This document shows, piece after piece, positions 5,000 through 14,012 of a stretch of 64,000 bases of DNA; the first letter of the stretch is position 1, and the number at the start of each line of letters is the position of its first letter. The stretch is from an uncultured Flavobacteriales bacterium (lineage in GTDB: Bacteria > Bacteroidota > Bacteroidia > Flavobacteriales_D > Sanyastnellaceae), in the NCBI GenBank assembly GCA_938085105.1, contig CALKGK010000052.1, forward strand, positions 1-64,000, given 5' to 3'. The position numbers were made by a program, and so were the translations under genes. Under the pieces are notes generated by a model that was not told the origin of the DNA, ran no database searches, and saw nothing but the letters and a program-made list of their open reading frames with translations.

Positions 5000-6979
5000 A
5001 TGATCCCAAAACACACCATTGACCAGATTTTTGAAGCCGTCTACATCGAAGAGGTGGTGGGAGAATTTGTGCACCTCAAAAAGCAAGGTGCCACCTTCCG
5101 GGGATTGTCGCCTTTCACCAACGAGAAAACACCTTCTTTTTACGTCATTCCCGCAAAAGGGATCTACAAATGTTTCTCTTCTGGAAAGGGGGGGAATGCC
5201 GTGAGCTTCCTCATGGAGCATGAAAAGATGAGCTACCCCGAGGCGCTTCGTTGGATCGCTGCCAAGTACAACATTGAAGTAGAAGAAGAGCAGAAGAGTC
5301 CCGAACAAATGGAGGCTCAAACGGAGCGTGAAAGTTTGGCTGTGGTGATGGCTCATGCGCAACAGTATTTCACGGAGCAGCTCATTTCTAGCGATGAAGG
5401 GAAAGCCATTGGTCTGAGCTACTTCAAGGAGCGCGGATTCCGTGATGACATCATTAAGAAATTCCAACTGGGATACAATCCGGAAGGGTGGGACACCTTT
5501 ACCAAGGCAGCAATTGACGCTGGATATGAGAAGAAGTGGCTCATCGCAGCTGGGCTAACCCGCGATAAAGATGGTAAGGCCTATGATTTTTTCCGAGGTC
5601 GGGTAATGTTCCCCATCCGCAATGTGAGCGGTAAAGTCATCGCTTTTGGGGGGAGAACCCTGAAGACGGAAAAGAAGATTGCGAAGTACTTTAATAGTCC
5701 GGAAAACGCCCTTTACAACAAGTCAAAAGTTTTGTACGGTATTTACCTTGCGAAACACGAAATGAGTAAGCTCGACATGGCTTATTTGGTGGAAGGATAC
5801 ACTGACGTTATCGCAATGCACCAGGCCGGAGTGGAGAACGTGGTGGCCAGTTCCGGTACGTCGCTCACGGAGGGGCAGATTAAGCTGATTAGCCGGTACA
5901 CCAAGAACATCACCATGCTTTATGATGGTGACCCTGCGGGAATTCGTGCCTCTTTCCGAGGAATTGACTTGATTTTGAAGCAAGGGCTCAACGTGAAGGT
6001 TGTTTTGTTTCCGGATGGTGACGATCCCGATTCCTATTCGAAAAAGGTTAGTTCAAGCGAGCTTCAAGAGTACATTCAGAACAGTGCAAAAGACTTCATT
6101 GTTTTCAAAACTGATCACCTCTTGGGAGATGCTAAGGGAGACCCAACGAAACGTGCTAGTCTCATTTCAGAGATTGTAAATTCCATCTCTCAGATTCCAG
6201 ATAACATCAAGCGCTCGGTTTACATTCAGGAGTGCTCGTCCTTGTTGGACATCGAAGAAAGGGTGTTGTTGAATGAGATGAACCGTCTTCTTCGGGTCAA
6301 CACCACAAAGCAGAAGAGTCCATCGCCATATGGAGCACCACCTCCGCCACCAGACGACTTGTTTCTTCCACCCCCCATCGAGATTCCAGCGATCCAACCC
6401 GGTTCGGCAAAAAACCCTTACCAAACGGAAGCTCAAGAGGCAGATTTTATTCGACTCTTGCTCAATTATGGAAACTACCCTGTCCGACTCGCCATTCAAG
6501 ACGACAATACTGGAGAGGAGGAAGAGGTCAATATATCGGTGGCAGAATACCTTTTGGAAGAACTGGAACACGACCAGTTTGATTTGAACAATGAGGTTTA
6601 CAAGCGCATCGTAGCGAGATATGCCACCTATTTAGAAAAGGAGGAGTTTCCAGATATTAAAGCCTTCACCAACAGCGAGGATAATGAGATGGCTCAAGCT
6701 TGTGTTCAGTTTCTCGCCTCGCCTTATGTGATGAGTGATAATTGGGAATTGAGGCACGGAATTTATCCTGAAACGGAAGACATGAAGCTGGACCGTGCAG
6801 TTCGGGATTGCATCAACCGTTTAAAGTTGAACAATGTCATGAGTTTGATCCAGCTCACTCAAGAAAAGATTCGAGAAAGCGAGAACGATGACGAGCTCAT
6901 GCTTCTTTTGTATGAGAAGAAAAAGCTAGATTCGGTGAAAATCACCCTTTCCAATTATTTCGGAAGCTCAATTTTATGA
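5000..6979 (+). CDS. dnaG: DNA primase DnaG
   Basis: A 659-residue replicative primase, which synthesises RNA primers at the replication fork with DnaB helicase. Domain order is normal: an N-terminal zinc-finger-like domain (1-100), the catalytic core with Toprim (about 255-345), and a C-terminal helicase-binding region after a Pro-rich linker (about residues 445-465). Toprim signatures are visible: VEGYTDV with Glu265 and MLYDGDPAG with Asp309 and Asp311. The zinc site is degenerate. At the positions of the four CHC2 ligands the sequence has Ser37, Thr40, Cys58 and Ser61, so only one of four is kept (GLSPFTNEKTPSF, YKCFSSGKGG). The fold motif around it is well conserved. The start ATG follows a TATTTTTG element. 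The 3' end overlaps the MscS gene by 4 bases. Confidence 0.97.
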   Translation: MIPKHTIDQIFEAVYIEEVVGEFVHLKKQGATFRGLSPFTNEKTPSFYVIPAKGIYKCFSSGKGGNAVSFLMEHEKMSYPEALRWIAAKYNIEVEEEQKSPEQMEAQTERESLAVVMAHAQQYFTEQLISSDEGKAIGLSYFKERGFRDDIIKKFQLGYNPEGWDTFTKAAIDAGYEKKWLIAAGLTRDKDGKAYDFFRGRVMFPIRNVSGKVIAFGGRTLKTEKKIAKYFNSPENALYNKSKVLYGIYLAKHEMSKLDMAYLVEGYTDVIAMHQAGVENVVASSGTSLTEGQIKLISRYTKNITMLYDGDPAGIRASFRGIDLILKQGLNVKVVLFPDGDDPDSYSKKVSSSELQEYIQNSAKDFIVFKTDHLLGDAKGDPTKRASLISEIVNSISQIPDNIKRSVYIQECSSLLDIEERVLLNEMNRLLRVNTTKQKSPSPYGAPPPPPDDLFLPPPIEIPAIQPGSAKNPYQTEAQEADFIRLLLNYGNYPVRLAIQDDNTGEEEEVNISVAEYLLEELEHDQFDLNNEVYKRIVARYATYLEKEEFPDIKAFTNSEDNEMAQACVQFLASPYVMSDNWELRHGIYPETEDMKLDRAVRDCINRLKLNNVMSLIQLTQEKIRESENDDELMLLLYEKKKLDSVKITLSNYFGSSIL

Positions 6980-11070: not shown

Positions 11071-12060
11071 TTAGCCTTGTTCAATTAATTGAAATAACTC
11101 ATTCAAGTTTGGAGATAAAATAATTTCGATTCTCCTGTTCTTCGCCTTGTCATCTGGATCGATGGGGTGAAACTCTGAACGACCGGAGGCGCTCAATATT
11201 TTTGGTTCAACCTGTGAATTGCTCACCATGATCTTCACAACTGCGGTAGCTCTCAATACACTAAGTTCCCAGTTGTCGCTTGGGATAGTGTTGCTTCTGA
11301 TCTGATCGGTGTCTGTATGTCCTTCAACAATAATTTCGAGATCTGCTTCTGTTTCGATGGCTTTTGCAAGGTCAATCAAGGCTTGTTTTCCTTCTGCGTT
11401 GATGTTCGTGCTGCCCGAAGGGAACAAGAGTTTTGCTTCCAGGCTCACGTAGACCTTCCCATTTTTTTGTTCAACCGTTAGTCCCTTGTCTTTGAAGCCT
11501 AAAAGCGCTTGAGAAACACGGTTTTTGAGATCATTAACGGCAGCATCTTTCTTTGCGATGAGCTCTTCCAGCTCTTGAACTCTTGCTTCACGTGCCTGAA
11601 GTTCTGTGCTCATTTGTTCGATATTGGCTTCCTTCGCATTCAATTCACCTTCAAGAATTCTGAGCTCATCTTCTTGCATTTGCAATTCGTTTTGCGTTTT
11701 CTGAAGATCGGCAAGGAGTTTTTTGTTTTCCGAAGTAATATCAGCCATCATTTTGGTGTTCTTGTTCACCAAGATGTCGTTCAACTCATTGATCTTATCG
11801 TATTGAGTGCGTAGTTGTCGTGATGTACTGCCCAAGAATGCGGTGTCTGCCCTAAGCGCCTCATTATCTTTCAATAATGACTCTTGCAAGCTTTCACCTT
11901 CTTTCACTTGTGCACGAAGTAGTTCGTTATCTGAAGTGGCTTTGTTTAGTTTTTCAGTGCAGGCTTGCTCTTTGTTTTGCAGTTCTTCAAACTGCCTTCC
12001 GCTTACACAAGAGCTTAAAATCAATACACTGACAATTCCAAGGGTGAATATGGATCTCAT
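11071..12060 (-). CDS. OmpA-family coiled-coil lipoprotein
   Basis: A 329-residue lipoprotein: signal peptide with lipobox LILSSC (Cys18), a long coiled coil (about residues 25-190, rich in Glu, Leu, Lys, Gln), then a C-terminal OmpA/MotB-type peptidoglycan-binding domain (about 205-315). Key OmpA motifs are LLFPSGSTNINAEGKQAL, VEGHTDTDQI, NWELSVLRATAVVKIM and the terminal KNRRIEIIL. The NWELS variant is typical of the MotB-like branch. The protein should be anchored by lipid to the outer membrane and bind peptidoglycan non-covalently, acting as a spacer or tether. It is a single gene with its own terminator. A specific partner cannot be assigned. Confidence 0.9.
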   Translation of the reverse strand: MRSIFTLGIVSVLILSSCVSGRQFEELQNKEQACTEKLNKATSDNELLRAQVKEGESLQESLLKDNEALRADTAFLGSTSRQLRTQYDKINELNDILVNKNTKMMADITSENKKLLADLQKTQNELQMQEDELRILEGELNAKEANIEQMSTELQAREARVQELEELIAKKDAAVNDLKNRVSQALLGFKDKGLTVEQKNGKVYVSLEAKLLFPSGSTNINAEGKQALIDLAKAIETEADLEIIVEGHTDTDQIRSNTIPSDNWELSVLRATAVVKIMVSNSQVEPKILSASGRSEFHPIDPDDKAKNRRIEIILSPNLNELFQLIEQG

Positions 12061-12260
12061 ATCAAAGGGTTAAATAGGACAATACGAATTTCGGAAGTAC
12101 TGAGGCTGTAAGGGCTGTTTTCCTTCAATGTTGTGAACAGGGAGATGTGAATGAGTGTCTGATGCTGCGATGAGCAGAAACGCTTGAACAAAAACCCCTA
12201 GGCATTACATCAAAACATAGAATTTGTGCTTTATGTTACTAATACCTGAACAGAAAGCAC

Positions 12261-12268
12261 TAACTTTG
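12261..12268 (+). promoter_or_regulatory. Candidate -7 promoter element before the 29-codon gene
   Basis: TAACTTTG is a perfect match to TAnnTTTG and lies 18 bases before the ATG at 12287. It supports transcription of the short reading frame on the plus strand. Confidence 0.45.
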
Positions 12269-12286
12269 TGGACCTAACTTTAAAAA

Positions 12287-12376
12287 ATGATCAATTTCCT
12301 TCACAAAGCTGAGCATTGGTTCAATGACCGGTTTGGTTGGTTTTTCACGAACGGCCACAAATCGAACAAGCGATAG
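12287..12376 (+). CDS. Candidate 29-residue small protein
   Basis: ATG to TAG encodes 29 residues that start MINFLHKAEH and continue WFNDRFGWFF then TNGHKSNKR. The peptide is aromatic-rich and amphipathic with a basic tail, and unlikely to be random: five Phe, two Trp and three His in 29 residues, organised as a helix plus basic end. A consensus -7 box lies just upstream. The stop abuts the 3' end of the convergent aldehyde dehydrogenase gene without overlap. It could be a small membrane-associated protein. I do not know a family with certainty and cannot check conservation; a non-coding leader or chance frame is the alternative. Confidence 0.5.
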   Translation: MINFLHKAEHWFNDRFGWFFTNGHKSNKR

Positions 12377-13822
12377 CTACAGCTCGATACACACATTTTG
12401 TGCTTCTGTAAAAAAGCGCAATGCCTCAAATCCACCTTCTCTTCCTACACCGGATGACTTCGTTCCCCCGAAAGGTGTTCGCAGATCGCGAACGAGCCAA
12501 CAATTGATCCAAGCGATGCCTGTTTGTAATTCGTTGGCTACTCGATGGGCTCTGCTCAATTCTTGAGTCCAAATGGTTGCGCTCAAACCATATTCTACGC
12601 TATTGGCCATTTTGATTGCCTCTTCCTCAGTGCTGAACGGGGTGATGGTAACTACTGGGCCAAAGATTTCTTCTTGATTGGTTCTGCAATCGAATTTTAA
12701 TCCTTCAATGACCGTTGGGGAAATGAAGAACCCTCCACTGATCTCTTCATTTTCAGGAATGACCTGCTCACCCCCACAGAGCACCTTCCCTCCTTCTTCC
12801 TTCGCTAGTTGAACATAGGAAAGCACTTTTTCCATGTGACTCTTCGAGACCACCGCACCCATTTTGGTTTTTGGGTCTTTTGGGTCTCCTACTTTCATTT
12901 TGCTCACTTTAGCAACAAAGTCGGTCTTGAACTTTTCATACAAGCTTTCTTCTACGAATATGCGCGAACCACAAAGACAAATCTGCCCTTGGTTAGCAAA
13001 ACTGCTTCGAAGCGTTGTAGAAAGCATTTTGTCATAATCGCAATCGGCAAAAATGATGTTGGGGTTTTTCCCGCCCAACTCAAGGGATAGCTTTTTGAAT
13101 TTTGGAGCAGCTTCTCTCGCAATGTGCGCACCAGTGTTGGTACCACCGGTGAAAGAGATGGCTTTGATGTCTGGATGAGAGATGATGGCATTCCCTGTTG
13201 TAGGCCCATCGCCGTGGACAATGTTCAGCACTCCATTCGGCAGGCCTGCTTCGATACAAAGACGAGAAAGAAGATAGGCTGTTTGAGGGGTGATTTCTGA
13301 TGGCTTCGCGACGACACAATTACCAGCGGCAAGCGCTGGAGCAATCTTCCAAGTGAATAAGTAAAGCGGCAGGTTCCAAGGTGAAATGCAAGCAACTACT
13401 CCAATGGGTTTTCTATTGGTGTAATTCACATGAGTGTTTTCCATGATGTGCGCTTCACTTGCGTAGTGGTTGATGGCACTGGCGAAAAACCGAATATTAC
13501 TCTCCGCTCTCGGAATATCGACATGCGCCGCGAGCGAAACAGGTTTTCCATTATCAATACTTTCGGCCAAGGCCAAATCGGCAGCATGCTTTCCTATGAG
13601 GTCGGCCAACACATTTAAACAGCGAGATCGCTCAGTGTAGGGAGTTGTACTCCAAGCTGGAAATGCTCTTTTTGCGGCCTGAACGGCGTTTTCTACATCT
13701 GAATTGTCCGATAAAGGAATTCTGCCATAGACTTTTCCCGTCGAAGGATTGATGTTGTCCATCCATTGATTCCCTTGTGGATTCCGCAGTTCTCCGTCGA
13801 TGTAGTTTTGAATGGTCTTCAT
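12377..13822 (-). CDS. Aldehyde dehydrogenase, 2-hydroxy/2-aminomuconic semialdehyde type
   Basis: A 481-residue NAD+-dependent aldehyde dehydrogenase with the full set of catalytic motifs: SPWNLPLYLFTWKIAPALAA (NAD-binding entry), SFTGGTNTGAHIA, the general base in LSLELGGKNP, and the nucleophilic Cys in NQGQICLCGS. The C-terminal CWLVRDLRTPFGGTKSSGVG is characteristic of the 2-hydroxymuconic semialdehyde dehydrogenase/ALDH8 branch. In Bacteroidota such genes usually serve 2-aminomuconate semialdehyde oxidation in tryptophan (kynurenine) breakdown, but no other gene of that pathway is in the window, so the substrate is inferred. Cytoplasmic. A TAACTTCG sequence at 13840-13847 (minus) upstream of the ATG may be its -7 box. 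Confidence 0.9.
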   Translation of the reverse strand: MKTIQNYIDGELRNPQGNQWMDNINPSTGKVYGRIPLSDNSDVENAVQAAKRAFPAWSTTPYTERSRCLNVLADLIGKHAADLALAESIDNGKPVSLAAHVDIPRAESNIRFFASAINHYASEAHIMENTHVNYTNRKPIGVVACISPWNLPLYLFTWKIAPALAAGNCVVAKPSEITPQTAYLLSRLCIEAGLPNGVLNIVHGDGPTTGNAIISHPDIKAISFTGGTNTGAHIAREAAPKFKKLSLELGGKNPNIIFADCDYDKMLSTTLRSSFANQGQICLCGSRIFVEESLYEKFKTDFVAKVSKMKVGDPKDPKTKMGAVVSKSHMEKVLSYVQLAKEEGGKVLCGGEQVIPENEEISGGFFISPTVIEGLKFDCRTNQEEIFGPVVTITPFSTEEEAIKMANSVEYGLSATIWTQELSRAHRVANELQTGIAWINCWLVRDLRTPFGGTKSSGVGREGGFEALRFFTEAQNVCIEL

Positions 13823-13936: not shown

Positions 13937-14007
13937 TGCCCTATGGTGTAAAGGTAGCACACCGGTTTTTGGTACCGTTTGTCTTGGTTCGAATCCAGGT
14001 AGGGCAA
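13937..14007 (+). tRNA. tRNA-Gln (UUG)
   Basis: The acceptor arms TGCCCTA and TAGGGCA pair perfectly and are followed by discriminator A; CCA is not encoded. The D arm GTGT/GCAC, anticodon loop TTTTGGT with anticodon TTG, and T arm CTTGG-TTCGAAT-CCAGG are all present. The top pair of the anticodon stem (C27 with U43) is mismatched. The anticodon identifies glutamine. It has its own promoter and terminator, so it is a single-gene unit. Confidence 0.97.
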
Positions 14008-14012
14008 CTTTG

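Follow-up and report, generated by a model that had tools for sequence, protein, structure and literature searches.

RESULTS

A 29-codon frame abuts an aldehyde dehydrogenase gene

In the window, by which we mean the whole 64-kb stretch of DNA analysed here, a frame of 29 codons lies between an OmpA-family gene and an aldehyde dehydrogenase (ALDH) gene, divergent from the former and convergent with the latter (Table 1). The initial annotation had proposed this frame as a gene, and its coordinates, length and sequence were all borne out. The same holds for the claim that it ends exactly at the end of the dehydrogenase gene, since the last base of its stop codon is 12376 and the ALDH stop, read as its complement, starts at 12377, with a gap of zero bases. 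The encoded microprotein is as aromatic and basic as had been described, with five F and two W among its 29 residues and five K/R plus three H versus two acidic residues, and no long hydrophobic stretch was seen by inspection of its sequence.

Table 1. Features at and near the microprotein gene (positions in the window)
Feature	Position	Strand	Remarks
Cysteine-rich protein, 323 aa	9644..10615	+	repeated DG..NG.E..IDCGG..C.PC units
OmpA-family gene	11071..12060	-	divergent, upstream of the microprotein; context
Promoter box TAACTTTG	12261..12268	+	Bacteroidota -7 type (TAnnTTTG); separated from the ATG (12287) by the 18 bases 12269-12286
TAAAAA	12281..12286	+	immediately 5' of the ATG; A at -3
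Microprotein ORF, 29 aa	12287..12376	+	MINFLHKAEHWFNDRFGWFFTNGHKSNKR; core W11-F-N-x-x-F-G-W18-F-F-T-N22-G-x-K25
ALDH, 481 aa	12377..13822	-	Pfam Aldedh; best NCBIfam model TIGR03216, below cut-off
tRNA-Gln	13937..14008	+	flanked by the ALDH gene and the gene of a 1790-aa protein bearing a CHU_C type IX secretion signal

The perfect TAnnTTTG box reported upstream of the frame was confirmed, together with its spacing. Promoters with TAnnTTTG at -7 and TTTG at -33 are found in Flavobacterium and Bacteroides, the -33 element is dispensable for expression and required for full activity, and the start-region element of Flavobacterium is TAAAA, 2-12 bases from the start (PMC2483708). At the usual spacing (about 20 bases 5' of the box) we found no perfect -33 TTTG; the nearest TTTG (12223-12226) is 34 bases upstream of the box. 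An A at -3, as present here, promotes initiation in F. johnsoniae (PMC6847099). In the sister species, the box at the aligned position reads TACATTTG and differs at degenerate positions only. Among 64 lower-GC loci of the family, a perfect TAnnTTTG occurs no more than 80 nt upstream in 9, where 1.5 were expected, and the remaining 55 lack one within that distance. The idea of a promoter element belonging to the gene itself is thus supported at this locus and not across the family at large. Because the window contains 190 ATG-started ORFs of 25-40 aa, the length of the microprotein is by itself no evidence of a gene; TAnnTTTG sites number 51, both strands counted. Size and box taken by themselves are weak proof, and it is conservation that lifts the ORF above chance.

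The frame is conserved as a protein

The orthologue in a genome of the same genus, that of the sister species (G001), has 29 codons in an open frame (MFNMLNKAESWFNAKFGWFFTNGQKSNRG) and zero indels relative to the window. Between the two, 13.5 of 14.7 synonymous sites are changed (pS 0.92) versus 15.5 of 72.3 nonsynonymous sites (pN 0.21). A similar bias was obtained for the cores from bacterial genomes, with pN/pS 0.19 and pS 0.90, near saturation (97 distinct cores from the 99 of 102 loci that gave a scorable core), and for phage cores, with pN/pS 0.18 (39 distinct sequences); as the bacterial-genome loci were partly picked by their core, the value for the sister species carries less bias. 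The initial annotation had suggested searching relatives for an HWF/GWFFTNG core conserved with synonymous changes, and homologues with this pattern of substitution were indeed found. The kept frame and the purifying selection support a short protein-coding gene; judged from sequence, the frame is selected as a protein, and 12287-12376 is almost certainly a gene.

The abundance of short ORFs in the window could speak for a chance open frame. That reading is hardly credible: 33 of 60 relatives match, the sister species shows the substitution pattern given above, and the core recurs in 21 of the 40 genera sampled among relatives and in phages with synonymous change near saturation. A structured RNA was also considered and rejected, given that one tRNA was the only Rfam family to reach its gathering threshold in the window.

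Distribution of the family among bacteria

With the single sequence as query, 38 of 60 related genomes matched at E <= 10, and a profile of 36 homologues retrieved 33 of the 60 at E <= 1e-3, with 1 to 3 copies per genome among relatives. At the same threshold 70 of 399 genomes of the order matched; at the level of the class, 59 of 395 did so at E <= 0.1, of which 25 reached 1e-4. A sample of the phylum gave matches in 3 of 296 genomes, one of which (G1020) was discarded on reading, the other two belonging to the window's own family; the weak match in G138 was likewise set aside as a non-member. A scan of 84,980 bacterial and archaeal species genomes yielded 107 pattern matches. The loci confirmed number 75, every one in a record of a metagenome-assembled genome and nearly all labelled Flavobacteriales, Bacteroidetes or Bacteroidia. 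The conserved core that defines the family is WFNxxFGWFFTNGxK, its most constant residues being W18, F19, N22, G23 and K25; alignment A1 comprises 36 of 49 homologue rows, those with start and core. In one genome (L242, G679:C83), a frame with the core peptide lies between genes that by eye resemble NusG and polysaccharide-synthesis genes, and most sampled members of the family to which that genome belongs gave no match.

No member of the family was recognized in the libraries searched. None of 36 members matched Pfam, two of the 36 matched an unrelated regulator in NCBIfam (best E 0.038), and no convincing match was found in the PDB (best E 0.49) or, for 71 members scanned, in PHROGs (best E 0.033) or PADLOC (best E 0.028), so that a known defence protein was rejected. 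A literature search with five core strings returned no paper containing any of them, and among papers on small proteins of Bacteroidetes, phages and Flavobacteriales no title or abstract opening names such a family, the motif, sharing between host and phage, or a function.

Chromosomal neighborhood

The neighborhood was surveyed at 102 bacterial-genome loci, which represent 101 distinct peptides (L115 and L250 are identical), omit loci without start or without core, peptides already counted and the unparsed L251, and include the prophage-like L056 and L109 as well as L082 and SL022, which are near a contig end downstream. At 75 of them the same ALDH, with 59.9% or more identity to that of the window, is convergent downstream, and in 70 of these 75 the gap between the two genes ranges from -32 to +51 bases. 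Another eight loci have a divergent RidA gene on one side and a Xaa-Pro peptidase gene downstream. The other 19 have neither setting; one of them adjoins an unrelated ALDH and two are near a contig end. The ALDH beside L252, 26% identical, was discarded as not the same ALDH. An OmpA-related gene lies upstream in 21 of 75 microprotein loci, divergently in 20, and a relative of the cysteine-rich protein of the window is present at 20 of 75. Just upstream of the microprotein, several genomes of the class encode similar proteins of some 90 aa (..INDLREKEF..YRIAELN..; L247, 463-732; L248, 4440-4709; L254, 4525-4839); the one member scanned (L247) matched neither Pfam nor NCBIfam.

The window's genome has one copy of the ALDH type and one of the RidA/Xaa-Pro type. 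The second copy, L259 (G000:C66:4000-16000, about 5730-5860 on the minus strand), encodes 43 aa between RidA and Xaa-Pro peptidase genes, and some 2 kb away is a gene of the tryptophan 2,3-dioxygenase family, which passes the Pfam Trp_dioxygenase cut-off and fails that of the NCBIfam equivalog. This match suggests that both copies adjoin genes of tryptophan-breakdown type, a putative function for the neighbors given that the best NCBIfam model of the ALDH is also below its cut-off.

The ALDH is not an obligatory partner. Among the 60 relatives it is present in 56 and the microprotein in 33, and G042, which carries the microprotein, gave no ALDH match at E <= 1e-120. In G042 the microprotein is upstream of a histidine kinase and a response regulator, which by eye are like those beyond the ALDH in other loci. 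In G008 and G027 the microprotein is elsewhere, convergent with what by eye is a NusA-like gene.

Phage contigs carry the peptide alone and as part of longer proteins

In phage contigs the peptide is re-used as a module. A profile search of IMG/VR confirmed 57 loci out of 87 pattern matches, falling into 15 neighborhood groups (20, 7, 6, 6, 4, 3, 2 and 2 contigs, plus seven single contigs), a number that short contigs may inflate; eight groups have at least two contigs. A broader pattern scan of phage contigs confirmed 116 of 221 matches, of which the best 80 were taken. For the comparison of phage copies, 140 viral loci gave 136 rows (none for L335, L336, L337 and L341), and locus numbers are not contig numbers, some viral contigs having been entered twice with different flanks. 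A second phage type reads KWFELNxGWFF[IV]NGRKQxxWxxYLxxKY. Both the phage and the genome scans were seeded on the core, which overstates its invariance, and phage variants with NARK, NGRN and ISGRK exist. In isolated phages and plasmids we found no convincing homologue, a few weak matches (E 2 to 7) being taken as chance. The phages with the peptide presumably infect related bacteria.

Across 83 distinct phage DNA windows, the core was scored as stand-alone in 65, which include hairpin tails scored in this way by the script, as the head of a longer protein in 14 and as the tail in 4. Heads are placed before DUF6378 (Pfam E 3.7e-9, above cut-off) or before a zinc-ribbon-like segment (Pfam match below cut-off); for another protein of the DUF6378 sort, a PHROG with the label phosphofructokinase was matched (E 8e-12). 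In seven phage contigs the module directly follows a two-helix hydrophobic hairpin, with the exact core in four, NGRN in two and NARK in one. This hairpin-tail family (L334-L340; also L312, L323, L325 and L329) has proteins of about 100 aa that start with MFEIIG in all seven contigs read, and the AlphaFold model of the hairpin (four sequences) has a pLDDT of 72 and a pTM of 0.36. Coming from one phage protein family, these fusions may represent one event. Directly upstream of the phage copies L199, L284, L302, L304, L313 and L320 is a hydrophobic microprotein of 46-50 aa (MKKI.YY..RVLS..LAIPAL...; its call in L302 is 73 aa) that may be a partner of the peptide; the one member scanned had no PHROGs match.

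In 20 of 81 distinct cases the phage copy shares 4 bases with the gene that follows, as in operons. The positions of the phage copies are mixed, near replication genes, terminase or lysis genes. Two stretches that look prophage-like by eye were seen, in G384 and G294, and both genomes possess a chromosomal copy as well.

Predicted structure and membrane tests

For a 36-aa homologue, AlphaFold returned a single helix (residues 2-27), with a mean pLDDT of about 92 over residues 1-20 and low confidence for the NG-K end (about 65 over residues 21-30). The microprotein is thus predicted to be helical. Its helical hydrophobic moment is ordinary when compared with shuffles (mean z about 0.9), with p < 0.05 in 2 of 93 host segments and in none of the 33 and 44 phage segments. 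The mean net charge is +1.7 for host peptides and +5.1 for phage peptides. The neighbors of the phage copies show no enrichment in membrane proteins or lipoproteins (22 of 133 versus 153 of 1182, p 0.28).

DISCUSSION

Because the module occurs by itself as well as at either end of unrelated small proteins, we consider a docking or anchoring peptide to be the best explanation. We propose that a short single helix, as predicted, ending in WFFxNGxK may act as a docking peptide, in which the helix and the aromatic/NG/K end would together recognize a single conserved component of the host, probably on the cytoplasmic side of the inner membrane, and that phages would carry the module alone or as the head or tail of small proteins to reach the same host partner. 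Docking itself, its place at the membrane, the partner and whatever the phages gain are inferences of ours, and we assign this mechanism as a whole a probability of about 0.4. The hairpin fusions and the hydrophobic microprotein upstream of phage copies point to the membrane surface, whereas neither the helical moment nor the genes beside the phage copies lent support to this reading. The near-invariant W, F, N, G and K are placed all round the end of the helix, so that protein recognition fits better than lipid binding. A bolder form of this proposal, doubtful though conceivable, is that WFFxNGxK may be a docking signal of Bacteroidota hosts taken over whole by phages. It would be a portable plug, some 15 residues long, into one essential host complex, with host and phage competing for one socket; the phage proteins recruited would then be membrane hairpins, DUF6378 proteins, zinc ribbons and free peptides.

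MreB, FtsA and bactofilins use amphipathic membrane-targeting helices, and the microprotein could be an anchor of this kind that binds lipid and has no protein partner. The resemblance lies in a short terminal module, helical in form and aromatic and basic in composition, that is found on unrelated proteins; a lipid anchor would also suit the positive charge of host and phage peptides and the fusion to a hydrophobic hairpin. The microprotein differs in being mostly a free-standing gene, in its weak helical moment, in being common to bacteria and phages and in its near-invariant WFF.NG.K, which is stricter than such anchors require. With a moment close to that of shuffles and no enrichment of membrane neighbors in phages, we hold a lipid anchor to be unlikely. 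An arms-race role is appreciably less probable. In that reading the peptide would serve in lysis, exclusion, the triggering of defence or counter-defence, and the chromosomal copies would be domesticated or protective, as might be expected from its presence in phage contigs of at least eight neighborhood groups, from prophage-like stretches alongside a chromosomal copy, and from some phage copies that by eye are near holin-like or endolysin-like genes. The chromosomal copies, syntenic and few per genome, look instead like housekeeping genes, PADLOC gave nothing convincing, and the phage positions follow no single theme.

The conserved neighborhood could suggest that the microprotein serves the dehydrogenase, or tryptophan breakdown, as a subunit or modulator. 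The ALDH, of the TIGR03216 type (2-hydroxymuconic semialdehyde dehydrogenase; best match below cut-off), which we take to be related also to 2-aminomuconic semialdehyde dehydrogenase, is a conserved convergent neighbor at most loci, and the second copy in its RidA/Xaa-Pro setting has the dioxygenase-family gene close by. Unlike in a system bound to this enzyme, however, the ALDH is not needed for the microprotein to be present, as seen from the counts among relatives, from G042 and from the copies facing a NusA-like gene; no such genes were noticed by eye nearest to 18 phage copies, and passive inheritance can explain linkage at the DNA level. We regard this role as very unlikely. More improbable still is an action in cis, as a leader or arrest peptide or as an antisense RNA. 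The product is small and aromatic, its WFN string is reminiscent of the TnaC leader, and a read-through transcript would be antisense to the ALDH gene. Since the next gene is the convergent ALDH, here and at 75 of the 102 loci, there is no same-strand gene directly downstream to regulate; the core also starts or ends longer proteins, and conservation is at the protein level, with synonymous sites near saturation.

Returning to the docking peptide that we favor, the family to which it belongs has counterparts among catalogued small proteins. It resembles the phage families that Fremin et al. reportedly catalogued in 2022 in being conserved, below 50 codons and without annotation. It is likewise akin to the conserved unannotated ORFs below 50 codons in GMSC, a small-protein catalogue of microbiomes that takes ORFs of 30 nt or more (PMC11364881) and may hold members of the family as unnamed clusters.

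This work illustrates that a reading of raw sequence, combined with knowledge of promoters, can reveal very short genes; the second copy, the spread of the family and the phage homologues are beyond what a first reading of the sequence could know. A gene of 29 codons, from a family absent from the libraries used, proves to be under strong selection at the protein level across many genera of the order, and the presence of the same module in many uncultured phages suggests that bacteria and phages both need it. If the docking proposal is true, any tagged form, from host or phage, should pull down the partner, and if host and phage do compete for one socket, that socket would be a new control point in these bacteria, most of which are uncultured.
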